This document shows positions 4,176-62,507 of a stretch of 64,000 nt of DNA, one piece after another (the first letter of the stretch is position 1; each line of letters begins with the position of its first letter). The stretch is from contig CP126123.1 of assembly GCA_030123605.1 (NCBI GenBank), positions 1,302,001-1,366,000 of the forward strand. The letters run 5' to 3'. The translations under genes were made by a program, and so were the position numbers. The notes beneath the pieces are model-generated. The model searched no databases, had not been told where the DNA came from, and saw only the letters and a list, made by a program, of their open reading frames with translations. The stretch comes from Nitrospira sp. Its GTDB lineage: Bacteria > Nitrospirota > Nitrospiria > Nitrospirales > Nitrospiraceae.

Positions 4176-6086
4176 ATGAGCACCCTCTTCAAGGGATTCG
4201 AACGGATCGAGGAAGCCCGCGAGCGATTCACAGGCGTGAGTTTCATGACGGGGCTCTATGACGGACGCCCGGACTTCGACCTCCTGCTGACGCCCCCCGA
4301 GCCGCCAGACGAGAAGGCCGCCGGCGAGGCCTTCTGCAAACAGGTGGAACTCTTTTTGCGCCACCAGGTGGACCCCGAGGAAATCGAACGCCACGCGAAG
4401 ATCCCCGAATCCGTCATTCAGGGGCTCTTCGCACTCGGAGCCTTCGGCATGAAGATTCCGAAAGCCTACGGCGGCCTCGGCTTCTCCTATACGAACTATG
4501 GTCGTGTCCTCACCTTGATTGCGGGCTGGAGCAACATCCTCGCACTGACGGTGGCGGTGCCGCAGTCCATCGGTATCGCCATGCCGATCCTGCTCTACGG
4601 CAACGAAGATCAGAAAAAAAAGTATCTCCCTCTGGTCGCCAAGGAGGCTCTGTCGGCTTTCGCCCTCACGGAACCGATGACCGGCTCCGACGCCGCCAAC
4701 GTACGGACCGAGGCCGTGTTGGATGCCACAGGCAGCCATTTCCTCGTGAACGGCGAAAAACTCTGGTGCACGAATGGACCGATCGCCCGCTACGCCACGC
4801 TCATCGCCCGCGTCCCGGCAAAGAAGGTGGAGCGCGACGGCACGATGACATGGGTGCCTGTTCCGAACGGACAAGGGGCGAATGACCGCGTCCACACGGC
4901 CTTCATCCTGGACATGTCCACCCCAGGCGCGCTCGTTCGCCACCGTTGCCGATTCGAAGGCTGTCGCGGAATCGAAAACGCCCACCTGACCTTGGAGAAC
5001 GTGCGGATTCCGGTCGAGCATGTGATCGGGGACATCGGAAAGGGACTGAAGTATGCGTTGACGATCCTGAACGTGGGTCGCGGCATCAGTATCCCGGCCA
5101 TTTGCCTGGGCATGGCAAAGCAAGCTTGGCAGCCGACGTTGGACCGGACGAATACGAGGCTCACGTTTCAAAAACCCTTGGCCGAACGGCAGACGCAACA
5201 GATCAGGATCGGGGACATGGCGGGCCACCTGTACGCAATGGAGGCGTTGTCCATGCTGGTCTGGCGAATGGCCGATCACCATCGCTACGACATCCGCATC
5301 GAGGCCGCCATGGCGAAAATATTCTGCTCCGAACATACGATCCGATTCCTCCGCGACGCCCAGATCATCTTCGGAGGCATGGGGTACGAAACCGCCGATT
5401 CCAAGAAGGCGCGGGGAGAGGCGGCGTTCGGCATCGAGCAGCTCGTTCGGGATGCGGAGATGTATCGGATCGGAGAAGGGGCCACCGATATCTTACGACC
5501 CTTCGTCGTCCGTGAAGGGTTGAACCGCCATCTTGAGCTGGCCAAAGGGTTCTATGCCGACGGCCTCTCGATCCTCGACCGGATCGGACAAACGTTGAAA
5601 TTGGTACGCTTTTACCTACCCTGGTACCTGCGGCAATGGCGGAAACGGCCCCTGCCGAACCGTTCTGAATTTGCTCATCTCCAAGTCGGACCGTTGACGC
5701 GGTATGTCGAACGAACCAGCCGGCGCCTGGCGCGCGAAGTTTTGTATGCGATGGTGCGGTTCCGTGCCTCGTTTCAAGACGAGCAGCGCCTGCAGAACAG
5801 GATCGAAGCCGTCGGCGAAGACCTGTTCGCCATGCTGGCCACGGTGCTCTATGCCGAGTCGCAAACCAGAGTCGAGGGCCGTACGACGGTATGGGAATTG
5901 GTCGATGCGTTCTGTACCTGTGCGAAACAACGGATCGAGCAACGGCTGACGGAGTTCCGGCATCACCAAGACCACCTCACGGCTGCCACCGGGACGCAAG
6001 CCCTCAAAGGCTACTACCCCACCCTGTCGGAAGGAATCATTCACCGCCGTCTTGACGACTACGTAGGCAAGCACCGCTCGTCCTGA
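4176..6086 (+). CDS. Acyl-CoA dehydrogenase, long form
   Basis: FAD enzyme of 636 residues. The N-terminal and middle domains carry the family pattern FALTEPMTGSDAAN and NGEKLWCTNG near residues 165-200. The C-terminal helical domain has QIIFGGMGYETADSKKARGEAAFGIE broken around the usual FAD contacts, followed by RIGEGATDILR. A further stretch of about 180 residues follows, longer than short-chain family members and reminiscent of the very-long-chain (ACADVL-like) group. It introduces a trans-2 double bond in an acyl-CoA and passes electrons to an ETF. It completes an activation, oxidation and methylcitrate cluster with the upstream genes. Substrate length is unknown. Confidence 0.85.
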   Translation: MSTLFKGFERIEEARERFTGVSFMTGLYDGRPDFDLLLTPPEPPDEKAAGEAFCKQVELFLRHQVDPEEIERHAKIPESVIQGLFALGAFGMKIPKAYGGLGFSYTNYGRVLTLIAGWSNILALTVAVPQSIGIAMPILLYGNEDQKKKYLPLVAKEALSAFALTEPMTGSDAANVRTEAVLDATGSHFLVNGEKLWCTNGPIARYATLIARVPAKKVERDGTMTWVPVPNGQGANDRVHTAFILDMSTPGALVRHRCRFEGCRGIENAHLTLENVRIPVEHVIGDIGKGLKYALTILNVGRGISIPAICLGMAKQAWQPTLDRTNTRLTFQKPLAERQTQQIRIGDMAGHLYAMEALSMLVWRMADHHRYDIRIEAAMAKIFCSEHTIRFLRDAQIIFGGMGYETADSKKARGEAAFGIEQLVRDAEMYRIGEGATDILRPFVVREGLNRHLELAKGFYADGLSILDRIGQTLKLVRFYLPWYLRQWRKRPLPNRSEFAHLQVGPLTRYVERTSRRLAREVLYAMVRFRASFQDEQRLQNRIEAVGEDLFAMLATVLYAESQTRVEGRTTVWELVDAFCTCAKQRIEQRLTEFRHHQDHLTAATGTQALKGYYPTLSEGIIHRRLDDYVGKHRSS

Positions 6087-6101: not shown

Positions 6102-7031
6102 TTAGGCCCTTGCCAGGCGTGATCCTTCGACAACTTCAACCTTGAAGGGATGACCGGATTCCCCCATGTAGAGGGTGCGGTGCGGAAACGGCATCTCGAT
6201 GCCGTGCGCGTCGAAGGCCTTCTTGAGACGGCGCCGATATTCGCGTCCGACTTTCCACTGCTCGAGCGGCTTGGTTTTGATGCGCGCGCGAAGCGTCACG
6301 GCCGAATCGGCAAAATTCTCCACCCCCACCACTTCGATCGGCTCGATTATCAGCGGAGCGAAGTCCTGGTCGTGGCGCAATGCCTCACCGACTGCCTGCA
6401 TGACCTGGACGACGCGATCGGTATCTTCTTTGTACGCCACCCCCACGTCGAGGACGAAGGCCGACCAGTCCTTGCTCATATTGGACAGGGTCGTGATCGC
6501 ACCGTTGGGAAAGATGTGCACCACACCTGAGAAGTCTCGGAGCGAGATGGTCCGAAACGTGATCGTCTCCACCAGGCCTCCGGTTCCGTTGATGACGGCC
6601 ACATCCCCCAACCTGATGTGATCTTCCAGGATGATGAAGAAACCGCTGATGAGGTCCCGCACAAGATTCTGCGCACCGAACCCGACGGCCAGCCCGATGA
6701 TGCCGGCGCCGGCCAAGATCGGGGCGACGTCCAATCCGACGAACTGCAGCGATTCGATGAGGACGATCGCCCAAATCGCGGTGAGGGCGATGGTCCTGAG
6801 GATACCGGTCAAGGTCGCGGCACGCTTGTGCGCCGTGCCGGACTGCTGATCCGCCGCGTCGCTCGCAGCCACCATCACGCGCTCCATTTGTCGGAGTCCC
6901 ATGCGCGAGAAGCGCACGGCCACATACCCGATCACCACAACCAGCCCCACGCGCAACAGAGCCACGCTCACGGTCGTGGCCATGTTGATCAGCCACGGCC
7001 AAACTGCCTCGATCGAGAGTCCGGTCATCAT
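6102..7031 (-). CDS. MscS-family mechanosensitive channel / small-conductance transporter
   Basis: Inner-membrane protein of 309 residues with an N-terminal hydrophobic segment, two further helices and the pore helix followed by the beta domain. Typical MscS wording is present: AGAGIIGLAVGFGAQNLVRDLISGFFIILEDH interrupted around the pore, then the GLVETITFRTISLRDFSG strand. Role by family: ion efflux on hypo-osmotic stress. The start is a double ATG; its first ATG overlaps the stop of the upstream LapA-like gene by four bases, and AGGAG precedes it. Convergent with the acyl-CoA dehydrogenase, with only 15 bases between the stops. Confidence 0.88.
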   Translation of the reverse strand: MMTGLSIEAVWPWLINMATTVSVALLRVGLVVVIGYVAVRFSRMGLRQMERVMVAASDAADQQSGTAHKRAATLTGILRTIALTAIWAIVLIESLQFVGLDVAPILAGAGIIGLAVGFGAQNLVRDLISGFFIILEDHIRLGDVAVINGTGGLVETITFRTISLRDFSGVVHIFPNGAITTLSNMSKDWSAFVLDVGVAYKEDTDRVVQVMQAVGEALRHDQDFAPLIIEPIEVVGVENFADSAVTLRARIKTKPLEQWKVGREYRRRLKKAFDAHGIEMPFPHRTLYMGESGHPFKVEVVEGSRLARA

Positions 7032-7366
7032 GCCTGTTCTCCTTTCATCTTGTCGGTCGAGCGGGAAGGCAGCAGAGACCCAGACTGTAGCGATGCTTCC
7101 CGATCGTGGGTTTCCAATCGTCGAATGCGTTCGGCCTGAGCGTGGACGGTCTCGGCCAAACGATTGACCTCACGAGTTCGCCGCAATCGCCCGCCCAGCG
7201 GGACGGTCGCCGCGAGGCAGGCCCCGAGCGCAGCCGATCCCAGGATGACCAGAACGAGGTCGGTCTCATAACTCCATAGGAAAAACCGCACGCTGACGGC
7301 CTCCATATTCTGAAGCGCGAATAACGCCAGCACGAACAACCCCACTAACACGATGCCTCTGCTCAC
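7028..7366 (-). CDS. LapA-domain (DUF1049) small inner-membrane protein
   Basis: Small protein of 112 residues with two hydrophobic segments around the pattern ALFALQNMEAVSVRFFLW, characteristic of the LapA/DUF1049 family, followed by a charged helical tail rich in R and E (residues about 60-95) likely to form a coiled coil. The start is a GTG at 7366 because a perfect AGGAGG lies six bases before it (7373-7378); upstream in-frame ATG or GTG starts have no comparable signal. Translationally coupled to the MscS gene. LapA relatives act with LapB in lipopolysaccharide control in enterobacteria, but that role is not shown here. Confidence 0.75.
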   Translation of the reverse strand: MSRGIVLVGLFVLALFALQNMEAVSVRFFLWSYETDLVLVILGSAALGACLAATVPLGGRLRRTREVNRLAETVHAQAERIRRLETHDREASLQSGSLLPSRSTDKMKGEQA

Positions 7367-7603
7367 CTTACGCCTCCTCTCGACCATTCCGCCTCGCTCA
7401 CCCGGCCGCCCGACTCCTGCCTCGCGACATGCCCAACCCACGATGCCGTCGACCGGCGAGGCACGAAAAACCGCGCCCTTGGTCGACACCTGCAACGAAT
7501 CGGACGGAAAGGTATCGGTCCTCATCCGCCCATCGTAGGGGCAGGGTCCCGTCGATGCAAGCGGCGACGCCGCAATCCTGTGTGTACTACGGGGAAAAGC
7601 GGC

Positions 7604-8857
7604 TTACTTGGCGATGGTGATGGAAGGTGTGGGTGTCTTGGAAAGATCCGTGACGGTCATCTGAAAGAGCTGCGCGAGCACACGAAACGTCCCCAGGTTC
7701 CACGGGTCCAACGTGCTGTCCTCGTTGGAGACCTTGGCGATCGAGTACCAACGGTTCTCGAATTTTACGGCAAAGGCGGCATTGTCCGGCCGGGAATCGG
7801 TCTCGATGATGTTGAGTGTCTGTACAGGATTGAGGACGATTTCCCCTGTGCGTTCGTCTGGCGAGACCTGGAATTCGGGGTCGGCGGCGATGCCGCTGGC
7901 GAGAAACCGCATGATCTTGTTGAAGCTGCGAATGACGAGAAAGCCGTGGAGAGGATAGTCCCCGCCGGGACCGTCAGGCCGGATGTCGATGAGGATATAG
8001 TTGCGCGGATACCGTTGCGCTTCCTCGTGCAACAGGCGGCGCTCTTCATTCGGCAATTGCATGGGATCGTAGTTCGTAATGATCGTCCGCCCCGTCACAC
8101 GCCGTCGGACGGTGAGGGACGGCTCCTCGCTTACGCCGCCGATGGCGTACCCACGATCCAGCGCGTCGATGATCTTGTCGAGGCCTCGGACCACGTCGCC
8201 CGATCCTGCGCGCGCGGAGAGCGGCAGCGCCACGGTCTGCTCGAAGATCAGCGGCATGGCTTGAAGCCCCCGCGAGAGGTTCAGCGACGACAGGTGCATG
8301 ACGCGCCGGCGAAACTCCCGGTACTCATCCTCGAAATACGGCATGTTGCGGTAGAAGGCCGACTCGCCGTACCCGTTGACCTGAATCCCGCTCGCCATCA
8401 GGCGCAGGATGATCGCCGGTTCGATCCCCTGCTGAAACATGAAGGCCACGCGGCTTTCGTCGAAAGGGGTGAGGATGCGGCTGGTGAACTCCTCGCCTTG
8501 AATCGGCACGATCGTCATGGTCGGGCGCTCGGCCATGCTGCCGCCGAACGCGAGGGCGAGGGAATCCGCACCAGGTGAGACGAACGTCTGCGTCAAACCG
8601 GCGGTCGCCTGGAATTCGAACGTCGCTGCCACACTGGACACACCCGTGAAGTGCTGGGGAAAGAAGTGGCGGGACCGGGCGATGTTGAGGAGGAGCATTT
8701 CCGCTTCGACCCGCCCCACCGCTCGATCATATTCGAGGACGGCTTGATGCAGCGCGATCGGCGAGAGACAACCCGTCGACAGGAGACACAAAAGACCGAG
8801 TACTGCGGCACTGATCCCTGCACGCCGCATCGGCGGCTGCACCTCGCCACTCACCAT
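7604..8857 (-). CDS. Uncharacterised lipoprotein
   Basis: Predicted outer-membrane or periplasmic lipoprotein: hydrophobic N-terminus ending in the lipobox LLSTGC, then about 390 residues without a family I recognise. The text is rich in mixed alpha/beta sequence with repeated FENRW and FEFQ type strands. The start at 8857 puts a short AGGA before the ATG; the ATG at 8830 would give a more classical 21-residue lipoprotein signal and is an equal alternative. The gene starts just beyond the stop of the TPR gene on the same strand, so both are probably one transcript. Function unknown. Confidence 0.7.
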   Translation of the reverse strand: MVSGEVQPPMRRAGISAAVLGLLCLLSTGCLSPIALHQAVLEYDRAVGRVEAEMLLLNIARSRHFFPQHFTGVSSVAATFEFQATAGLTQTFVSPGADSLALAFGGSMAERPTMTIVPIQGEEFTSRILTPFDESRVAFMFQQGIEPAIILRLMASGIQVNGYGESAFYRNMPYFEDEYREFRRRVMHLSSLNLSRGLQAMPLIFEQTVALPLSARAGSGDVVRGLDKIIDALDRGYAIGGVSEEPSLTVRRRVTGRTIITNYDPMQLPNEERRLLHEEAQRYPRNYILIDIRPDGPGGDYPLHGFLVIRSFNKIMRFLASGIAADPEFQVSPDERTGEIVLNPVQTLNIIETDSRPDNAAFAVKFENRWYSIAKVSNEDSTLDPWNLGTFRVLAQLFQMTVTDLSKTPTPSITIAK

Positions 8858-47910: not shown

Positions 47911-48034
47911 GCAAGATGCTCAGAAAGGCCTCCAGCAAGGCCGCAGCGAGTGACGGGCCGAGGCGTACCCTCGAGGTACATTGAGGGTCTGAACGAGGCG
48001 AGAACGCCGCTGGCGGACTTTTTCAGCATCTTGC
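47911..48034. repeat. Dispersed palindromic element, copy 1
   Basis: Terminal inverted repeats GCAAGATGCTCAGAAAG and CTTTTTCAGCATCTTGC with one mismatch, and an interior containing AAGGCCGCAGCGAG and GAGGCGAGAACGCCGCTGG, also seen in copies 2 and 3. Looks like a MITE or REP-type element. It fills the space between convergent traT2 and modC and touches the modC stop codon (48034-48036). Confidence 0.75.
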
Positions 48035-49128
48035 TAATCGCCTTGCCTCGACACGAGATGGACCGCACCGGCCTTAATTGCGGCCACCACCGGAAGGCCT
48101 GAAACCAACCCGAACTCTTCCACAGTCGAGCGCGTGACCACGGCGACGAGAGGAAAGCCGCAATCGATCGTCACCCGCGCCAAGGCTCCGAGCGCGGCGA
48201 CCACGGTGACGGTTCCGGAAAGATGATTCCGCGCGCTGCTCGCGGCGGCCGATCCCCGTTCCAGCACGACATCCTCCGCCCTGATACAGACAAAGACCTC
48301 CGGTCCTGTGGGCTCCGCTTCGATGGCCGTCAGCGTCGTGCCGTTCACGTTCACGCGCAGCATGCCGTCCGCCGAACCGACCACTCGCCCCTTGACGACC
48401 GTCTCCACTCCCACCACACGCGCCACCTCCGCATTCTGCGGGCGACTGAAGACCTCGATCGGTGCCCCGACCTGCAAGACCTCGCCCGCACTGATGACCG
48501 CCATGACATCGCCCAGGGTCAGTGATTCCGCCCAATCATGCGTCACGATGATCGACGGGAGGGCCAGCTTCTTCAAAAGACTCCGCAGTTCGTCTCTCAA
48601 ATGCAGCCGCGTCGGCGCATCCAAGGCCGAGAGGGGCTCATCCAACAGCAACAACAGGGGTCGCGGGGCCACCGCCCGGGCCAAGGCGACGCGTTGTTGC
48701 TGCCCGCCGGACAGCTCTCGCGGCTTGGCCTGCCCCAGCCCGCGCAGCTGAAACAGCTCGACCATTTCATCCACTCGGCGCTGCCGATCTGCAACCGACA
48801 AATGCCCTAGCCCATACCCGATATTCCCCGCAACCGTATAGGTAGGGAAGAGCGCATAGTCTTGCGACATGTAGCCGATATGCCGATCTTGCGGTGTTAC
48901 TCTGATCCCCGACGCGGTATCCAGCCAGGTCCTCGACACGAATCGGATGGTCCCTTCTTCCGGCCATTCCAGCCCGGCGATGGAACGGAGAATCGTCGTC
49001 TTGCCGGATCCGGAAGGGCCGAACAGGATCAAGACCGTCGAGGCTTCAACCGGATAGCTGATCCGCGCTCGAATCGATGCGCGACCGGGAAACGTCTTGA
49101 CGATATCGATGGCTAATTCTGCGGCCAT
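48034..49128 (-). CDS. modC: Molybdate ABC transporter ATPase ModC
   Basis: 364 residues: Walker A GPSGSGKTT near 37-45, Q-loop, signature LSGGQQQR near 138-145, Walker B LLLLLDEP near 158-165, H-loop THDWAE. A C-terminal TOBE/molbindin domain (about 290-355: SARNHLSGTVTVVAALGALARVTI) is the mark of ModC and allows molybdate feedback. Powers import with ModB, which it overlaps by 16 bases. Its stop lies at the border of a palindromic repeat. Confidence 0.92.
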   Translation of the reverse strand: MAAELAIDIVKTFPGRASIRARISYPVEASTVLILFGPSGSGKTTILRSIAGLEWPEEGTIRFVSRTWLDTASGIRVTPQDRHIGYMSQDYALFPTYTVAGNIGYGLGHLSVADRQRRVDEMVELFQLRGLGQAKPRELSGGQQQRVALARAVAPRPLLLLLDEPLSALDAPTRLHLRDELRSLLKKLALPSIIVTHDWAESLTLGDVMAVISAGEVLQVGAPIEVFSRPQNAEVARVVGVETVVKGRVVGSADGMLRVNVNGTTLTAIEAEPTGPEVFVCIRAEDVVLERGSAAASSARNHLSGTVTVVAALGALARVTIDCGFPLVAVVTRSTVEEFGLVSGLPVVAAIKAGAVHLVSRQGD

Positions 49129-49787
49129 GCTGCCCAGACGTTGCGATTGACCGCATAGACGGCGAGCAATACCAGGTAGGAAACGACCAGCAGAAACAGT
49201 GCCGTCTGCGAGGCTGCGTCATAGTTCAGCGCTTGCACTTCGTCGTAGATGTCGATGGAGACGGTGCGCGTCACACCTTCCAAATTGCCTCCGACCATCA
49301 ACACCACGCCGAACTCTCCCATCGTATGGGCGAAACTCAGCACGACTCCGGTCACCAACCCGGCCGTGGACAGGGGCACGATCAACTTGAAAAAGGTACG
49401 GAGTTTGGAAACCCCTAACGTCCAGGAGGCTTCGATCAGCCGCCGATCCACCTGCTCGAAGGCCGCCGAGAACGGCTGCACGGCAAAGGGCAGACTGTAG
49501 AGAACGGAGGCCAGGAGCAAGCCGTCGAAGGTAAAGGGCAGGGGGTGGCCGATCAGGTCGGCATATAACCGACCGAAGGGGCTGCGCGGACCGATCGCCA
49601 CCAGTATGTAGAAGCCGAGCACGGTCGGCGGCAGCACTAAGGGCAGTGCCACCACCGACTCAACGATGAATTTCCACCGCCACCGTGAAAAACTCAACCA
49701 ATAGGCGATGGGAAGACCGATGAGCAACAGTATCAGCGCCGTGAGACCGGCCAGCTTGAAGGTGACCCAAATCGCAACCCAGTTCAC
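49113..49787 (-). CDS. modB: Molybdate ABC transporter permease ModB
   Basis: 224 residues with five to six helices and the EAA coupling loop (EASWTLGVSKLRTFFKLIVPLS). VVALPLVLPPTVLGFYIL is typical of ModB. The frame is open far upstream, but that part overlaps the molbindin gene in another frame and reads as non-protein; the GTG at 49787 with GAGG eight bases upstream starts the first helix properly. ModA is not adjacent but lies at 55754. Confidence 0.9.
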   Translation of the reverse strand: MNWVAIWVTFKLAGLTALILLLIGLPIAYWLSFSRWRWKFIVESVVALPLVLPPTVLGFYILVAIGPRSPFGRLYADLIGHPLPFTFDGLLLASVLYSLPFAVQPFSAAFEQVDRRLIEASWTLGVSKLRTFFKLIVPLSTAGLVTGVVLSFAHTMGEFGVVLMVGGNLEGVTRTVSIDIYDEVQALNYDAASQTALFLLVVSYLVLLAVYAVNRNVWAAWPQN

Positions 49788-50120: not shown

Positions 50121-50552
50121 TCAGTGTTCCTTGATCAACATCACATCGGTTGCCTTGATCAGCGCCACCACCATATCCCCGAGTTGAAGCCCCAACGTGT
50201 CGAGAGCGTCGCGTGTGATGACGGCCGTCACCTTTTGTTCGCCGACGTCAAGGTTGACCTGAGCCAGAATCACATCTTTCTTGATTGCCGAAACCTTACC
50301 CACCAGCTTGTTCCGCCCGCTGACATCTTCCCCTTCCGGCCTCTTTCCCAACCAACTGTCCAGCAGCGATTTCTTGAAGCGGTAACGTCCGCCGATCTTC
50401 GAGCTTTGGATCTTTCCTTCCCACATGTAGCGGTAGAAGGTCGGCAGGGCGAGGCGTAAATACTTCGCAGCCTCCCGCGCCGTCAGCACGTCGTTATTCC
50501 CGATAGCTCGTCTGGTCTGACGCTTGTTCGCCACGGATCTGTTTCCAACCAT
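50121..50552 (-). CDS. HTH-molbindin fusion, predicted molybdate regulator
   Basis: 143 residues: an excisionase/MerR-type helix-turn-helix (LTAREAAKYLRLALPTFYRYM, residues about 22-68) fused to a single TOBE/Mop domain (GRNKLVGKVSAIKKDV, TAVITRDALDTLGLQLGD, ATDVMLIKE, residues about 79-143). It unites DNA binding with an oxyanion sensor, doing in principle what ModE does but with a different HTH. It follows the periplasmic gene by 21 bases and precedes the molbindin and modBC. Start ATG 50552 has a weak ribosome site. Confidence 0.85.
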   Translation of the reverse strand: MVGNRSVANKRQTRRAIGNNDVLTAREAAKYLRLALPTFYRYMWEGKIQSSKIGGRYRFKKSLLDSWLGKRPEGEDVSGRNKLVGKVSAIKKDVILAQVNLDVGEQKVTAVITRDALDTLGLQLGDMVVALIKATDVMLIKEH

Positions 50553-51504: not shown

Positions 51505-52341
51505 TTATGAAGATGCGGAAATCAGGGTTCCCACCGCCTCTCCGCGAAGCGCCCCCGTGACCTGTCCTCGTTTGAGTCCGTTGACGATCCGGACTTCACG
51601 CATGTTCGTCGCGCGCTCCATATATTCCAACACGACTCGCTCGACGATGAAATCATCCTGGTCGCTTTCGAGCAGGGTTTTCGCATGGGCATGGTCGAAC
51701 AAACGCGCAGTCGGATCTTTCTTCGGGTCTGCGCTGAAGAGACCGTCTTCATCCTTGATGTACAAGACCCCCTTCGCGCCGAGAAACTCCCCCAGCAGAT
51801 AGGTGCCGGCATCCGTACGATGGCTCGGCAAACGCCCCTTGCCCGGCGTCTTTTCCCAAAATTCGAACGGCGGCATCCCCGACATGATGGGCAGACAATT
51901 CGTCGCAAGATAGAGCGGCAGTTTTTCAAGATCATCGTGGTAGACCATGATGCCGCCGTGCTTGGCCGTCAGCATCTGCAACATGCGCGCGTTCTGGACC
52001 GGGATCGAAGCTCCGACCTTCGCCAGCGCGCCGGTCGGCATGCCGAGGTCCAGCCCCAACGCGTACACATGGCGGGCGCGCGTGCCTCCGCCGACGCAGA
52101 TGACGAACTGCGTACCGGCCTTCTTGGCCGCGACGAGTTCATCGATGATCGGAAAGACGGCGCTGCGTCCGCGATCCATGATGCTTTGGCCTCCGATCTT
52201 CACGACCCACACGTCCGGAAGCACCCGAACAGGCGGTGAAGAAGGCAATCGGTCGGACAATCGAAGATTGGAGATGGACTCTCCCGAAAACACCGTCTCC
52301 AGGCCTTCGATCCAGATTCGCCCGTTCCGTTTTTCAGTCAT
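51505..52341 (-). CDS. mosB: Molybdenum storage protein, beta-type subunit (MosB-like)
   Basis: 278 residues of the amino-acid/UMP-kinase fold: VVKIGGQSIMDRG near residue 45 (phosphate-binding Lys present), VGGGTRARHVYALGLDLGMP, SGMPPFEFW, HRTDAG and KDEDGLFSADP. These are wordings of the molybdenum storage protein family, which forms a cage that stores polyoxomolybdate with ATP. AAGGA seven bases before the ATG, which overlaps the stop of the alpha-type gene. Assignment to beta follows the SGMPP and VNGL regions and is moderately sure. Confidence 0.8.
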   Translation of the reverse strand: MTEKRNGRIWIEGLETVFSGESISNLRLSDRLPSSPPVRVLPDVWVVKIGGQSIMDRGRSAVFPIIDELVAAKKAGTQFVICVGGGTRARHVYALGLDLGMPTGALAKVGASIPVQNARMLQMLTAKHGGIMVYHDDLEKLPLYLATNCLPIMSGMPPFEFWEKTPGKGRLPSHRTDAGTYLLGEFLGAKGVLYIKDEDGLFSADPKKDPTARLFDHAHAKTLLESDQDDFIVERVVLEYMERATNMREVRIVNGLKRGQVTGALRGEAVGTLISASS

Positions 52342-53186
52342 GTCGTTTTCCTTTCCCGACCGGCCTTGATGGTCGATCCAACGGCCTCGCCGTTGAAAAG
52401 TCGGAGCAGCGAGTTCGGATTGAGGCCGTTGACCAAATGCACCTCCCGCACGAGACGCGAATGTTCCAGACAAGGCAACAATTCCCGATCGAACGGCAAA
52501 TCAGGAAGATCCATCTCCATCAATCGGGACGCGGTGATCTCACAGATCAGCTCGGCATCGCGGTTCGTCCTCGGATTCGTCGAATACAATCCGTCCACGT
52601 CTTTGACATAGACCATACGCGCGGCGCCGATCAACTCCGCGATCAAATACAGCCCGACATCCGTTCCGTTTTCAGGAAGACGGCCCTTCTTCGGCGGCGG
52701 CTCCCAAAAGTGATAGGGCGGCTGTCCGATGCACACGGGGATCATGCCGCCGTCCAACCACATCGGCAGATCTTGCAGATGATCCTTGATGAAGGTCAGT
52801 CCGCCGTGCGGCGCGAGGAGGAAGACCAAGAGATCGCGGTTCTGCTCTTCAACGGCGCCCATGACGCGGGCCAAACCGCCGATCGGAAGGCCGAGGTCGA
52901 TTCCGATCGCATAAGTGTGCCGAACCCGGGCTCCGCCGCCCACGCCGATCACGAGTTTGTGACTCTTGCGCAAGGCCACGAGAGCGTCGATCAGCGGCAG
53001 GACGGCTTCTGCGCCTCGATCCATGATGCTTTGTCCGCCGATCGCAATGAAATTCACATCCGGCACCATCCGCCGGACCGGCCCGCCGTCGGTCGCCTCG
53101 TTGAGAACCCTGCTGACCAAGGACTCGCGCATGAGCCCGCTCTTGATATGAGTGCGCCCATCATCAGAAATCAACGGACTTGTCAT
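52338..53186 (-). CDS. mosA: Molybdenum storage protein, alpha-type subunit (MosA-like)
   Basis: 282 residues of the same fold: FIAIGGQSIMDRG, VGGGARVRHTYAIGIDLGLP, QPPYHFW and VKDVDGLYSTNP, with LPFDRELLPCLEHSRLV as in alpha subunits. The Lys of the usual KxGG motif is Ala here and the HR of the HRTDAG motif is absent (ENGTDVG), so this subunit may not handle ATP. Overlaps mosB and follows the EcfT-S fusion gene by 72 bases. AAAGGAAG precedes the ATG. Confidence 0.78.
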   Translation of the reverse strand: MTSPLISDDGRTHIKSGLMRESLVSRVLNEATDGGPVRRMVPDVNFIAIGGQSIMDRGAEAVLPLIDALVALRKSHKLVIGVGGGARVRHTYAIGIDLGLPIGGLARVMGAVEEQNRDLLVFLLAPHGGLTFIKDHLQDLPMWLDGGMIPVCIGQPPYHFWEPPPKKGRLPENGTDVGLYLIAELIGAARMVYVKDVDGLYSTNPRTNRDAELICEITASRLMEMDLPDLPFDRELLPCLEHSRLVREVHLVNGLNPNSLLRLFNGEAVGSTIKAGRERKTT

Positions 53187-53258: not shown

Positions 53259-54545
53259 TCAGGGTGACGCACGGCGGTGATGTCCTCTCCCGCTGCCGCC
53301 TCCTGCATGGGGCTCGTCGCGCGGTTCTTGTGCTGCCTGCAACGGCGGCTCAACCGGGACATCGGTCGGGTTCACTGAGATTCGGCGCGAGGCGATGTCG
53401 AGCACCGCCATGCTCACAAAGGCGCTGATCGCACCGAAGAAGACCTGTGACGCCAACATGGGGAGGTACAGCACAAACGCCATCCCCGGCCCCCCGGCCA
53501 GCAGTATCACGAGGATATTCGCTGTGAAACGGCCGACTCCCAGAAGTCCGCCGACCAGTCCGAATTCAATGAATCGTAACCATTTGGGATGGCTCGGGCG
53601 AACAATGGGCAGGAGAAGATCCGCCATCAGCCCCGGCATCGCGAACTGGGCGATTTCCAACACGCCGTACTGCCCGTATCCGGAGAGGACGGAAACCACT
53701 CCGGCCGTGAGTCCGGTCCAGAGACCTCCGAACCGTCGATGAGCCAGACGGGAAGCCAACAGCAAAAAAGGAATGATCACCACATTCTTATGGCCGGGAG
53801 CAATCGGAATCCCGGGAAGAATCTGCAGGAGCTTCGTCCCCATGATGGCGGTCGCCATGCCGACGATGATCGCGATATCCTTCGCCTGCTCCCTGTCCAT
53901 GTCCGGATTCGCCCGCAGCACGAATCGTTCCGCACGGTCGAGTCCGCGCTCCACCAACTCCGTGATGAACCCCAGGTTGCCGTGACGGAGCTGCTCGAAT
54001 CCAAGCGCGATTTTCTCCCGCCGCTCCATTCCTCCTTGCCCTTGCCCCCGTCCTCCGCCTCCGCCCATTCCACCCCCCCCACCGCCGGAAGCGAGTCGAA
54101 TGGTGCCGTCGATCGAGGCTGCGATAAATCGGGGGACACCGAATCGTTCGAAGGCTCGCACCAAATCCCCAGGGCTCCCGCTCGCCTGCACCCAGACACT
54201 CGCCATGACCAGCACGAGCACCCGTAGGCACATCATGAACGCCGCAGAGACCCCGGCCAGATTGATCGCGATTGTCCAAGGACCGATCTTCAGGTCCGCC
54301 CATCGATCGACGTGAGCATCTCCGCTTGAAATGAAGGCGTACGAAATTCCGATGACCAGAAAAAAGATCCCCAATCGCTTCATAATCCTGACAAGGGGAC
54401 GCCACCCCACCGGAAAAAGCGACCAAAGAACTGCCTGCACGGTCAGCAGAATCACCGTCGTCGAGGGAGAGGGAACCACCAATAACGCCAGCACCACGGC
54501 GATCAGATAACCGAGCTTGACCTCCGGAGAGGGCGAATGAACCAT
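53259..54545 (-). CDS. ECF-transporter-like fusion: EcfT-like domain plus S-component-like domain
   Basis: 428 residues. Residues 1-150 look like the CbiQ/EcfT transmembrane coupling protein (KLGYLIAVVLALLVVPSPSTTV, helices through LRVLVLVMASVWVQASGSPGDLV). A glycine-rich hydrophilic insert (about 151-175) and an amphipathic region with three R-A pairs (RAF, DRAER, LRAN) follow. The C-terminal 190 residues have PGIPIAPGHKNVVIIPFL and about five helices as in S-components. No ATPase (EcfA) is in the window. Same direction and leading position relative to mosAB suggest a metal or oxyanion role, unproven. Start 54545 ATG; TTG at 54563 less likely. Confidence 0.6.
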   Translation of the reverse strand: MVHSPSPEVKLGYLIAVVLALLVVPSPSTTVILLTVQAVLWSLFPVGWRPLVRIMKRLGIFFLVIGISYAFISSGDAHVDRWADLKIGPWTIAINLAGVSAAFMMCLRVLVLVMASVWVQASGSPGDLVRAFERFGVPRFIAASIDGTIRLASGGGGGGMGGGGGRGQGQGGMERREKIALGFEQLRHGNLGFITELVERGLDRAERFVLRANPDMDREQAKDIAIIVGMATAIMGTKLLQILPGIPIAPGHKNVVIIPFLLLASRLAHRRFGGLWTGLTAGVVSVLSGYGQYGVLEIAQFAMPGLMADLLLPIVRPSHPKWLRFIEFGLVGGLLGVGRFTANILVILLAGGPGMAFVLYLPMLASQVFFGAISAFVSMAVLDIASRRISVNPTDVPVEPPLQAAQEPRDEPHAGGGSGRGHHRRASP

Positions 54546-54729: not shown

Positions 54730-55335
54730 ATGCGGACACGAGTGGTGCTCTCGTCAATGCTCGCGGTCGCGATGGGAGTCGGAGGGTGGAGCCTTCTTGC
54801 GACAGTTGTGTCTGCGGAAGAAGGAACGACTCCCGGCCACGGAACCGGTCAAGGGCAACAATCCCCCAATGTGTTCCGTCAACATGGATACAGCAAGGGC
54901 CAAGGACGCGGACAGGGACTGGGACCAGGCCTCGGTCATGGACCGATGGGACGGGTATTCGAGCAGTTCCGGTCCATGGATAAAAACGGCGACGGACTGA
55001 TCAGCCCGGACGAAGCGGCCACCCGGCGCGAGAGGATGTTCGCCGGCATGGCCGGTAAAGGGTCGAGCGATCTCACCCTCGACAAGTTTTTGCTCCCGCC
55101 CCAACCGGAAAAGGTGAGCAGGAGCGGCGACCATCAGGGCTTCCAAGACCTCCGGTATAGCGGCCTTCAAGCGAGGAGAAAACATCAGTTCAAGCTGATG
55201 GACCAGAACAACGACGGAAAAGTGACGAAGGAAGAATTTTTAGCGGGCGGCAAGAAACGATTCGAGGAAAGCGATCTCGACAAAGACGGATTTCTCTCCG
55301 CCTGGGAATACAGCCACCAGCACCATCGGTTCTAA
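54730..55335 (+). CDS. Secreted EF-hand protein
   Basis: 201 residues: signal peptide ending VVSAEEG, a glycine- and glutamine-rich stretch, then three calcium-binding EF-hand loops: DKNGDGLISPDE, DQNNDGKVTKEE and DLDKDGFLSAWE. Periplasmic calcium binder; partner unknown. AAGGAGG precedes the ATG. The only plus-strand gene inside the molybdenum region, diverging from the EcfT-S gene across 184 bases that show no clear regulatory motif. Confidence 0.85.
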   Translation: MRTRVVLSSMLAVAMGVGGWSLLATVVSAEEGTTPGHGTGQGQQSPNVFRQHGYSKGQGRGQGLGPGLGHGPMGRVFEQFRSMDKNGDGLISPDEAATRRERMFAGMAGKGSSDLTLDKFLLPPQPEKVSRSGDHQGFQDLRYSGLQARRKHQFKLMDQNNDGKVTKEEFLAGGKKRFEESDLDKDGFLSAWEYSHQHHRF

Positions 55336-55386: not shown

Positions 55387-55776
55387 TCATTTCTTCGAGT
55401 CTTCGGCCTGCCCTCCATGGTTGCGTCTGACGTCTCCGCCGCCCTCTTTGCATTCGAACTGAATGCCCCAACGCCTTCCCCGTTCCTCGTCTTCCGTTCC
55501 TTCTACGATGCCCATGCCGGCGCTGCTGTAGCCCCTGACTTCCCCTTCTCGAATGAACCGCGACCCGGCGTGGCACTTCGCTTGGATCATCTCCATCGCC
55601 GATTTCCTATATTGTGATCCCATCGGACCGCCTCGATCCTGCTTATAGGCGTAGGTCACCACCCCGCCGTGGTCCGATTCCTGACTCATCATGACCGCTT
55701 CGGAACAACCGGCAGCCACCATCGCCGCCGAACAAAGGACCAAGATCCAACGGTTAGTTCGGCAACGTGAATCCAT
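55387..55776 (-). CDS. Small lipoprotein after modA
   Basis: 129 residues: lipoprotein signal ending VAAGCSEA, then a small domain with two further Cys (KCHAGSRF and FECKEG) and a charged, disordered C-terminus. Overlaps the end of modA by 23 bases in another frame, so it is transcribed with it. Unknown family; EGTEDEERGRRWGIQFEC suggests a compact beta unit. Confidence 0.65.
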   Translation of the reverse strand: MDSRCRTNRWILVLCSAAMVAAGCSEAVMMSQESDHGGVVTYAYKQDRGGPMGSQYRKSAMEMIQAKCHAGSRFIREGEVRGYSSAGMGIVEGTEDEERGRRWGIQFECKEGGGDVRRNHGGQAEDSKK

Positions 55777-56554
55777 ACCGGGTCATGATCTCCTGACCTT
55801 GGGCTCCCTGCATGAATGCGAGAAATTGTCTGGCTGCGTCCTGATTCTTCGACTCTTTCACGATGACCGCTCCCTGCTCCAACGGAGGATGGGTATCGTC
55901 CGGAATCTGCCAGTAGCTGCCGGCCCTCTTCATGGTCGGAGCCAACGCCAGGGACAGGGCGATGATCCCGATATCGCAGGCACCGGACTCGATGAACTGC
56001 GCCGCTTGAGAAATGTTTTCGCCCAAGACCAATTTGTCTTTGACATCCCCGTAGACCTGCCCATGTTCCATCGCCGCGACCGCCGCCCGGCCATAGGGCG
56101 CATGTTTCGGATTGGCAATGGCGATCTTTCTGATCGTGGGCTCGCGGAGAACCGTGAGCCCCTTCGACAGATCGAGCGGAGAACTCTTCGGCGCCCACAA
56201 GACGACCCGCCCGACCGCATACCGGTACAACGACCCCGGCACGGTGAGGCCAGCCTCCTCCAATTTTTTCGGGTAGCCGATATCGGCCGAAAAATAGAGA
56301 TCGAAAGGCGCGCCCTGCTGCAATTGCGCATAAAAATTGCCGGACGAACCGAGCGACAGTTTCACCCGGTGACCGGTCTGTTTCTCATACTCCCCGATCA
56401 ATTCCTTGATGGCGAAATTCAAATCGGACGCAGCGGCCACGGCAAGCTCATCGGCAGCGGCAAGCGACCACGCACCCCCCACCGCCGCGACCAGGGTCAC
56501 GAGTAGAATCGCGCATGCAGCACCACTCATCCTCATAGAGTTCACGATAGACAC
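55754..56554 (-). CDS. modA: Molybdate-binding periplasmic protein ModA
   Basis: 266 residues: signal sequence then ELAVAAASDLNFAIKELIGEYE, SLGSSGNFYAQLQQGAPFDLYFSAD and GACDIGIIALSLALAP, all typical of ModA/WtpA-class substrate-binding proteins with the oxyanion-contacting serines of SGNF. Captures molybdate for ModBC, encoded 6 kb away. The GTG at 56554 has AAAGGAG eight bases upstream, better than any ATG. In an operon with the TOBE-like protein and porin upstream. Confidence 0.9.
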   Translation of the reverse strand: MSIVNSMRMSGAACAILLVTLVAAVGGAWSLAAADELAVAAASDLNFAIKELIGEYEKQTGHRVKLSLGSSGNFYAQLQQGAPFDLYFSADIGYPKKLEEAGLTVPGSLYRYAVGRVVLWAPKSSPLDLSKGLTVLREPTIRKIAIANPKHAPYGRAAVAAMEHGQVYGDVKDKLVLGENISQAAQFIESGACDIGIIALSLALAPTMKRAGSYWQIPDDTHPPLEQGAVIVKESKNQDAARQFLAFMQGAQGQEIMTRYGFTLPN

Positions 56555-56626
56555 GATCGATGCTCCTTTCTGTTCATGAGAGGCGCGTTCCACTCTCCTC
56601 TCGACCGACTGCGGAACCCATGTGCT

Positions 56627-60093: not shown

Positions 60094-60951
60094 TCAGCGA
60101 TGGTTCTTCAAATCCTCTCCGGTTCCTGGCAACCCATACCCGGCCAAGCGGACGGCGGTCTGAGCCTCGGTGCTTTGAATATAAGCGAGAAACTCCTCGC
60201 ACAGACGCCGATTGGGGCAATATCGTTCCATGGCCATCGAGTGCACCTCCGGCTGATATCCCTCCTTGATGATCGCGACCACCCGCAACCGGTCCCTCTC
60301 CTTGACCGCCTCATGCCCAAAGACGATCCCTGCATCAGCCTGCCCACCGAGTACGTGGTCCACGACTCCTCGTGAATCGGTGGCTTCATCCAGCCGCCCC
60401 GCGAACGAGGATGCAAATCCCAGCGCGCGGAGCGCTTGGTGTGTTTGCTTCCCAAGGATGGTACGGCCGGGCTCTGCAATGGCCAGGCGGGCGGTACTCC
60501 GGCTCAATGCTTCTAGGGATTCCGGTGCTTCCACCAATGATTCCGGCACGACCACGACGAGTTGGTCTTTCGCATAGGATCGTGTTGTCCCCGGTAACAC
60601 GTAGTATTTCATTTCCAACCGTGCGATCAGCTCATCGCCGCCCGGAGCGACCAGATGGATGGGCCCGGTCTCGATAAAATAACGGCCCACCATGCTGTTT
60701 TGCATTCCTGCGATGCCCTGTCTCATTGCCAATCCCGTATTGAAATGGAGCTTGACCCGCACATCGGGGTGAGAGCGCTCGAAACCGGCCGCGAGTTGCT
60801 CCAACACGCCCTTGAGGCTCGGCGAGGCCGCTATGACGAGCGGCTCACCGGCCCTTGCTGCGGCAGGACCAGCCACACTCACGACCAGAGACAAGACCGC
60901 CAAACACAACACAACTCGAGTCGAACTCCACATGAGGCCTTGCCCTCCCAT
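60094..60951 (-). CDS. Second ModA-like extracellular oxyanion-binding protein
   Basis: 285 residues: signal peptide, then PLVIAASPSLKGVLEQLAAGFE, NTGLAMRQGIAGMQNS, EPGRTILGKQTHQALRALGFAS, VLGGQADAGIVFGHEAV: a type-2 periplasmic-binding fold of the ModA/WtpA class. It differs from the main ModA in the phosphate-contacting loop (no SSGN), so ligand may be molybdate, tungstate or another. GGAGG lies five bases before the ATG at 60951. It follows the HTH-PBP regulator gene by 60 bases, same strand. Confidence 0.75.
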   Translation of the reverse strand: MGGQGLMWSSTRVVLCLAVLSLVVSVAGPAAARAGEPLVIAASPSLKGVLEQLAAGFERSHPDVRVKLHFNTGLAMRQGIAGMQNSMVGRYFIETGPIHLVAPGGDELIARLEMKYYVLPGTTRSYAKDQLVVVVPESLVEAPESLEALSRSTARLAIAEPGRTILGKQTHQALRALGFASSFAGRLDEATDSRGVVDHVLGGQADAGIVFGHEAVKERDRLRVVAIIKEGYQPEVHSMAMERYCPNRRLCEEFLAYIQSTEAQTAVRLAGYGLPGTGEDLKNHR

Positions 60952-61011
60952 CGCCACCTCCAGTACGAAAAATGATGCGCTTCTGGCAACATATTACAAG
61001 GACCGAACCGG

Positions 61012-62205
61012 TTACCCTGCCCGCAGACTGCGCACCTTTCCCGTCTCCGTCATGTCGTATCCGCCCAAAGCCTCGACTTCCGTCCGGAATTGCCGGCTGG
61101 CGATGGCATCGAGTAGGTGGGTGAGACCGGGATGGCCGGCCAAATAGCGTTTCGGAAACACAAGATCATACCGGGCCTGCTGCAGGGGAATGAAATCGAG
61201 CCCGAAAATCTGGGCGGCGGATCGTATCCCGATCCCGACATCGGCCTGGCGCTCCGCGATATGTCGCGCAACCTCGAAGTGAGAACTCACACATGACCCA
61301 TAACCCTTCAATTCAGGCCCCTTGATTCCCAAGGCCGACAACCGCTGCTCCAGGAGCATCCTCGCTCCGGCGCCCTCTTCCCGATTCACGATCATCACGT
61401 TCGGACGCGCCAGATCCTCCACCCCACGTATCCGCTTGGGATTGCCGGCCCCGACGATCAGGCCTTCTTCCCAGGCCGCAAAGGTCACCACGATATAATC
61501 ATCTCCCTGCAGGTGACGCCGCAGATAGGGCAGGTTCGATTCCCCCGTCTTGACGTCCAGGATGTGCAACCCCGCCATGTGGACTTCTTTGCGTTTGAGG
61601 GCGTCCAGCGCCGCCGCGCTTCCCATCGTCCAACCGACGACCGTCGAGGCATCTTTATGACGACGTAGGTACTCGCTCGCCAGATTGATGGCCGGATCGC
61701 AGCCTGCGACTGCGATCTCCTGCTCGATGAGCTGCCGCTCACGCAGAAGACGCACGCGTACGATTTGATCGGACTTGGACGAACGAGTGCCTCCCCCGCT
61801 TCTCCCGATGACCAATCCGTCTGCGGGAACGGTATAATTCAACACCTCTCCCAAGGCTGCGACGGGACGGACGATAAACCGGTCTTCGACCTTGGCTACC
61901 TTGACCCTCGTGCGAGGCTGGATCGTGAGAACGGCTGTGCCGTGCCGCACCCACAGGCCGTCGATCAGTTCGCCGGTCGTCTTGAGACTGAAGATATCCT
62001 CCACGTGACAACCCAGCACGCTGGCAAGCCGCAACGCGACCGCGGTCGTCGGGAGGTATTGATTGGCTTCAATGGCACAGACGGCCTGCCGCGTGACCAA
62101 GGCCCCGTCGGCAAGTTGACCTTGAGAGAGGCCCTTGGCCATCCGCAGGGCGCGCAGGGAATTGACGACGTTCGAAGTGGGCTCGGCTTTGTTTTTTTCT
62201 CCCAT
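61012..62205 (-). CDS. HTH-PBP regulator (XRE HTH + substrate-binding-like sensor)
   Basis: 397 residues: XRE-type HTH (GLSQGQLADGALVTRQAVCAIE, residues about 12-75), a middle domain of mixed structure, and a C-terminal periplasmic-binding-like domain (AGCDPAINLASEYLRRHKDA, GWTMGSAAALDALKRKEVHMAG, NREEGAGARMLLEQRL, ADVGIGIRSAAQIFGLDF) of the PBP_like type. Such fusions are predicted molybdate or tungstate sensors that read the cytoplasmic level through a ModA-type fold. ATG 62205 is the start; the longer frame lacks a signal. Upstream of the second ModA-like gene. Confidence 0.83.
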   Translation of the reverse strand: MGEKNKAEPTSNVVNSLRALRMAKGLSQGQLADGALVTRQAVCAIEANQYLPTTAVALRLASVLGCHVEDIFSLKTTGELIDGLWVRHGTAVLTIQPRTRVKVAKVEDRFIVRPVAALGEVLNYTVPADGLVIGRSGGGTRSSKSDQIVRVRLLRERQLIEQEIAVAGCDPAINLASEYLRRHKDASTVVGWTMGSAAALDALKRKEVHMAGLHILDVKTGESNLPYLRRHLQGDDYIVVTFAAWEEGLIVGAGNPKRIRGVEDLARPNVMIVNREEGAGARMLLEQRLSALGIKGPELKGYGSCVSSHFEVARHIAERQADVGIGIRSAAQIFGLDFIPLQQARYDLVFPKRYLAGHPGLTHLLDAIASRQFRTEVEALGGYDMTETGKVRSLRAG

Positions 62206-62507
62206 CGCGGTATGCCTGTACCATGATAGATTTATATGTGTCAACTATTCTGAATCATTTTCGATGCAATTTATTTCCAGACGACATATCACACCCGTGG
62301 CCGACACGCGAGAACCATGCTCCCTCTCATGCAACGGACGATGCAGGCTGAAATGCCGCGCATTCGCGTACGCCCACTTTCCATGAATCTCAACGATTGC
62401 GGTGCGGCACGCTCTCCGGAACGGAGCCCTTCTGGACCGTCCTGTCATGCGGCTGACGGAAGACGCACAAGGAGAACGCGGAATAGGAGAGAGCGTGTTC
62501 TGTATTC

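Follow-up and report, generated by a model that had tools for sequence, protein, structure and literature searches.

A conserved protein combining EcfT-like and S-component folds is encoded with molybdenum storage genes: a candidate for molybdate or tungstate transport

The molybdenum locus

The window, a stretch of 64,000 nucleotides of a Nitrospira genome, contains an ATG-started open reading frame of 428 codons (53259–54545, minus strand), with exactly the bounds given in an earlier sequence-only reading. Its 428-amino-acid product, called T-S here, was assigned an EcfT-like and an S-component-like half by profiles and a predicted model. The gene stops 73 bp short of a first molybdenum storage gene of the mosA/mosB type (52341–53186, minus strand), whose match to the MoSto structures scores nearer to MoSto beta. 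A second molybdenum storage gene follows (51508–52350, minus strand; MoSto match, the frame having been translated with its start codon within the first codons). Both genes are homologous to MoSto alpha/beta, and comparison with the MoSto structures upholds the earlier placing of mosA and mosB behind the fusion gene in the same direction.

The T-S and mos genes lie inside a modABC locus, all on the same strand. A modA-type gene for a molybdate-binding protein is found upstream (55754–56593, minus strand; SBP_bac_11, 225 bits). Downstream are a gene for an HTH and TOBE protein, by its domains a probable molybdate-responsive regulator (50121–50552, minus strand), the modB permease gene (core match 49143–49769, minus strand; TIGR02141, 230.8 bits, above the cut-off) and the modC ATPase gene (48034–49128, minus strand; ABC_tran and TOBE). 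The latter encodes the only ABC ATPase of the locus and lies about 4 kb downstream of the T-S gene, on the same strand. The suggestion that no ATPase stands beside the fusion is thus right for the adjacent genes and wrong for the locus as a whole.

Other genes were noticed in the window. Directly upstream of the T-S gene, a divergent gene (54730–55335, plus strand) encodes a secreted EF-hand protein whose N-terminal part is rich in Gly and Gln; no homologue of it was found in other mos loci. A second, divergent ModA-like periplasmic binding protein was recognized by eye and weak similarity (60094–60957, minus strand). A 410-aa regulator (61012–62244, minus strand), in which an HTH and a ModA-like binding domain were recognized by eye, has a homologue near mosA in another locus, L123.

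Two ECF-type folds in one chain

The N-terminal half of the protein (residues 1–150, 54096–54545, minus strand) is recognized by sequence. Pfam CbiQ (PF02361) matches residues 2–142 (E 6e-9, 36.3 bits against a cut-off of 25), and TIGR02454 (ECF_T_CbiQ) matches residues 7–150 with 46.6 against 111.8, that is, below the cut-off of this stricter equivalog model. Across the family, TIGR02454 matches 35 of 36 members and PF02361 27 of 36 (E up to 1), and the family profile matches the EcfT chain 4hzu_T with an E-value of 4e-9. The T half is followed by a glycine-rich basic loop (residues about 151–180, 54006–54095, minus strand), visible in the sequence and as a low-confidence segment of the AlphaFold model, and by a second cytoplasmic helix (residues 192–212).

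The S-component half (residues 218–391, approximate bounds; 53373–53894, minus strand) contains Lys253 and Arg339 and was assigned by AlphaFold and VIA-align. The C-terminal half of the window protein has no Pfam match of its own, and no sequence kinship of the S half to any S-component of known structure was detected; an MptD-type S-component model gives weak matches in four family members. The AlphaFold model of the window protein, built on an alignment of 36 homologues, reaches a pLDDT of 84.7 and a pTM of 0.80. With VIA-align, its residues 218–391 superimpose on ThiT (Z 14.3 over 163 residues), PanT (13.7) and FolT (12.9), and S-components fill all 16 best rows for this half. Residues 1–140 superimpose on EcfT (5d3m_D, Z 10.0, rmsd 2.9 over 130 residues; 7nnu_D, Z 10.6). 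A second model, of the Myxococcota member L120 (35% identical; pLDDT 86, pTM 0.84), gives the same picture, with Z 11.9 to ThiT for the S half and 10.7 to EcfT for the T half.

Foldseek alone returned nothing at E <= 0.001 for the window model, S-components and EcfT chains ranking high with poor E-values; the fold assignment of both halves therefore rests on VIA-align. Since the profile matches and the two distant models agree, the earlier proposal of EcfT-like and S-component-like halves in one protein can be regarded as confirmed at the level of predicted structure: both folds form in the models. The glycine-rich insert between the halves, also part of that proposal, is present and conserved in kind across the family.

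Association with molybdenum storage genes

Homologues of the fusion first surfaced among the neighbours of mosA; a family profile then served for an independent search. Direct searches from the window protein, by short exact patterns or with the single sequence, had yielded none in genome contigs, plasmids or viral contigs and were judged too strict. Among 79 mosAB loci from GTDB genomes, retrieved with a MosAB alignment, 46 carry a T-S homologue, always on the mos strand (46/46), and in 42 of these the match ends at most 230 bp before mosA. The association is broader than previously supposed: by record title, the T-S-bearing loci belong to six phyla, the titles naming Alpha- and Gammaproteobacteria, Planctomycetota, Myxococcota, Nitrospirota, one Gemmatimonadales genome and one labelled Cyanobacteria. 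In a further 26 mosAB loci, each with 2.5 kb or more of upstream sequence, the gene is missing, from which it follows that MoSto has no local need of T-S. The gene is likewise absent from the mosAB loci of Azospirillum plasmids, and a search of viral contigs for mosAB found none. In a Gemmatimonadales contig (L106), three mos-type genes surround the T-S gene (4906–5709, 7001–7789 and 7940–8722).

Because the 79 loci had been selected through mosA, the search was repeated with the T-S profile. Among 284 Myxococcota genomes, 12 contain T-S, nine of them absent from the first, mosA-chosen set. Ten of the 12 homologues lie beside mos genes, another (L175) shares a gene unit with mosAB and modBC, and the last (L176) sits at a contig end; each homologue with sufficient flank is thus linked to mosAB. 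The unit of L175 (G536) is rearranged and is transcribed in the order modA, mos, mos, modB, modC, T-S; the link of T-S to mosAB therefore outlasts reshuffling. In Pseudomonadota, only the centre genome was positive among 349 sampled, so that T-S is rare in that phylum.

Pairwise T-S distances correlate with those of MosA (rho 0.73) and MosB (0.77), values reached in 0 of 500 permutations, and less with those of ModB (0.40). On the MosA tree, T-S presence requires five changes, compared with 19.4 when shuffled. Genes of the mod system occur within the retrieved stretch in 32 of 46 T-S loci, against 8 of 26 loci without T-S. Beyond mosAB and modABC, no recurring neighbour was found in the T-S loci, biosynthesis genes included. 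This last result bears on the idea that the protein carries some other small molecule, related to molybdenum or not (a metallophore or a cofactor precursor, for instance), its link to mos having another cause. Known S-components mostly bind organic vitamins, and the weak MptD-type matches in four members would fit; with mosAB and modABC as the sole recurring neighbours we hold this to be the least probable of the readings considered.

Loss of the ATPase contacts

The T components of ECF transporters touch their ATPases via two Ala-Arg-Gly signatures in cytoplasmic helices (PMC3246461), and among 28 canonical CbiQ proteins of the same phylum, 25 have an AMxxRG-type motif. In the T half of the fusions both coupling motifs are absent at the equivalent sites. 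The first is replaced by the Gly-rich loop, 24–76 residues long, with a median of 50% Gly and a net positive charge in 34 of 36 members; the second is a helix reading RAE without RG. Pairwise hhalign of the T half against CbiQ gave no information on the loop region. ARG strings occur in some members and were rejected as a coupling motif, as they belong to a LARGD segment before the second cytoplasmic helix. Given the outcome of this test, the T half should not be named a functional EcfT; the whole protein may still work as an ECF-type transporter.

The genomes point in the same direction. No EcfA was found above the cut-off in the window genome (TIGR04520 reaches at most 161.5 against a cut-off of 315), whose single CbiQ is the T-S protein itself, and none of 34 other host genomes has an EcfA above the curated cut-off. 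In 29 of these 34, no CbiQ beyond the fusion was detected; the remaining genomes contain ordinary ECF systems (G400, G408, G423 and G425, for example). These counts are approximate, since CbiQ detection is imperfect, the fusion itself being missed in several genomes, and since in one genome (G417) EcfA-like domains occur in tandem with no CbiQ detected there. From a first EcfA scan, ECF modules had seemed to be missing from almost every host; after the CbiQ scan and the inclusion of further regions, this was narrowed to most hosts. In G425 (L191, G425:C18:60000-64500), a single open frame of 865 codons encodes a pair of ABC ATPase domains together with a CbiQ domain, an A-A'-T fusion.

An ATPase could nevertheless come from the operon. 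The main rival to an ATPase-free protein is the same molybdate or tungstate transporter powered by ModC, the ATPase being shared between ModB and T-S. In many loci modC belongs to the same gene unit as T-S, and two loci (L122 and L085) have the order modA-modB-modC-TS-mosA-mosB. In one metagenomic contig (L094:2804-4876, G408), a ModC-like ATPase, a Gly-rich linker and T-S form a single ORF of 691 aa, adjoining a fused ModA-ModB ORF (1272–2804). This hints that T-S may draw on ModC; the case comes from a single contig and may reflect operon proximity alone. With both Ala-Arg-Gly motifs missing from the T half and several T-S loci having no modC in the retrieved stretch, we regard ModC coupling as unlikely, yet as the alternative to be taken most seriously.

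Proposed function and mechanism

The leading interpretation, tentative and held with rather less than even confidence, is that T-S is a single-chain, ECF-derived membrane protein of the mos-mod unit that moves molybdate or tungstate together with MoSto. We infer its substrate, its direction of transport and its source of energy. An ATPase-free protein and one served by ModC are two forms of this best reading.

Conservation in the S half is suggestive of a ligand site. Lys253 and Arg339 are invariant in 36 of 36 members and His252 is found in 30 of 36. Residues 252–253 lie where S helices 1 and 2 are connected, at the position of L1, within a conserved stretch of the first S loop (Pro-x-x-Pro-x-Ala-Pro-Gly-His-Lys). 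The Ala-x3-Ala pattern, by which S-components dock to the T unit, occurs somewhere in S helix 1 in 21 of 36 members, in a column that is not conserved. In FolT, the L1 loop gates the transporter (PMC4525288). The S half of T-S would bind an oxyanion, with the Lys253 loop at the L1-gate position. The T half would no longer recruit EcfA and would tether and orient the S half, while the former coupling region, turned into a Gly-rich basic loop, could contact MoSto or anionic cargo.

The same features could be read as those of a membrane dock or sensor for MoSto that transports nothing: the ATPase contacts are gone, the basic cytoplasmic loop is conserved, and the S-component fold also serves receptors and MreD (PMC11109136). 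Against this, conservation is among the highest in the loop that connects the first S helices and at Lys253/Arg339, as expected of a ligand site, and a signalling domain is absent, which makes a dock or sensor improbable.

For the transporter that we favour, a source of energy can be proposed. MoSto loads molybdate by hydrolysing ATP (PMC6448029), and this ATP-dependent loading could serve to draw substrate through a permease that has no ATPase. Energy would then come from trapping by the storage protein and not from a motor at the membrane. In its strongest form, the proposal would define a new ECF-derived class, a single-chain T-S permease without EcfA that hands molybdate or tungstate to MoSto, the ATP being spent by the storage cage; we consider this stronger version somewhat unlikely.

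A ModB-type permease is present in 34 of 35 host genomes, above the cut-off in 29, so that T-S would supplement ModABC and not replace it. This near-universal ModB speaks against the best reading, T-S not being the sole molybdate route, as do the 26 mosAB loci without the gene and a gene neighbourhood that gives no transport direction. The L094 fusion of ModC and T-S likewise speaks for an ATPase partner, and by sequence the S half is not detectably related to any structurally known S-component.

With ModABC import already present in most hosts, T-S could instead be an exporter or overflow valve that expels excess molybdate or tungstate or frees metal from MoSto, much as EetB-FmnA does for FAD. 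Export is possible for ECF-type proteins (PMC9973259). The FAD exporter depends on EcfA/EcfA', which are absent from the window genome, and we take an export role to be decidedly improbable.

Relation to known systems

The known substrates of ECF transporters are vitamins and the cations of cobalt and nickel. In the literature searched, no paper was found that assigns an oxyanion to such a transporter or associates one with a metal storage protein. The pairing of 'molybdenum storage protein' with 'energy-coupling factor' gave no papers, subscription papers lying outside the search, which accords with the earlier impression that such a link had not been described. Papers pairing 'molybdate' with 'ECF transporter' appear, in the parts available, unrelated to T-S proteins. 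The T-S family is real and conserved, its description was not found in the literature searched, and the function given here is a proposed one.

The comparison with known proteins brings out what is shared and what is particular. With EcfT/CbiQ (PF02361), the N-terminal part of T-S shares both fold and sequence; it differs in the loss of both Ala-Arg-Gly motifs, in its Gly-rich basic cytoplasmic loop, in having no EcfA partner and in running on into an S-component. With the S-components ThiT, PanT, FolT, RibU and YkoE, residues 218–391 have a common fold (Z 11–14 in two models); this half differs from them by having no detectable sequence kinship, by standing behind the T half and by its own conserved GHK loop. 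Solitary S-components such as BioY and BtuM (PMC11109136) apparently operate, like T-S, without a dedicated EcfA module; they have no T half in the chain, whereas T-S keeps one. ModABC and MoSto (MosAB) are the gene partners of T-S and are linked to the same chemical element, ModB and EcfT belonging to different permease families.

The sequence-only reading had taken T, S and A to be separate proteins in the known ECF transporters. This does not always hold, as A-A' and EetB(S)-EcfT fusions are reported (PMC6828968, PMC9973259), and with S-T fusions already recorded in the EetB family, fusion as such is no novelty. In the EetB-EcfT fusions reported for the EetB-FmnA FAD exporter (PMC9973259), S and T stand in one chain, as in T-S, and this system illustrates an ECF-type role other than vitamin import. 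It nevertheless involves a different S family (none of 36 T-S members matches the EetB-family domain PF07456), needs EcfA/EcfA' and is linked to flavin genes, whereas T-S is linked to molybdenum genes.

The family is a strong candidate for the transfer of molybdenum into or out of storage and would provide MoSto with a conserved membrane partner. As a natural case of a T component that persists without its ATPase contacts, it also bears on the transport by solitary S-components.

Origin of the unit in Nitrospirota

Among 296 sampled Nitrospirota genomes, the window's own is the sole one with mosA and with a full-length match to T-S, and vertical inheritance within the phylum was rejected on this count. 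Weak T-S matches in two other Nitrospirota genomes (E about 1e-3, with internal stops) were set aside as chance. The MosA tree places the window gene beside Emcibacter (Alphaproteobacteria), within a group of Proteobacteria and Planctomycetota. This position and the rarity in the phylum make it likely that the T-S/mos unit of the window was acquired horizontally. The base composition of the unit is unremarkable, with 60% GC throughout.
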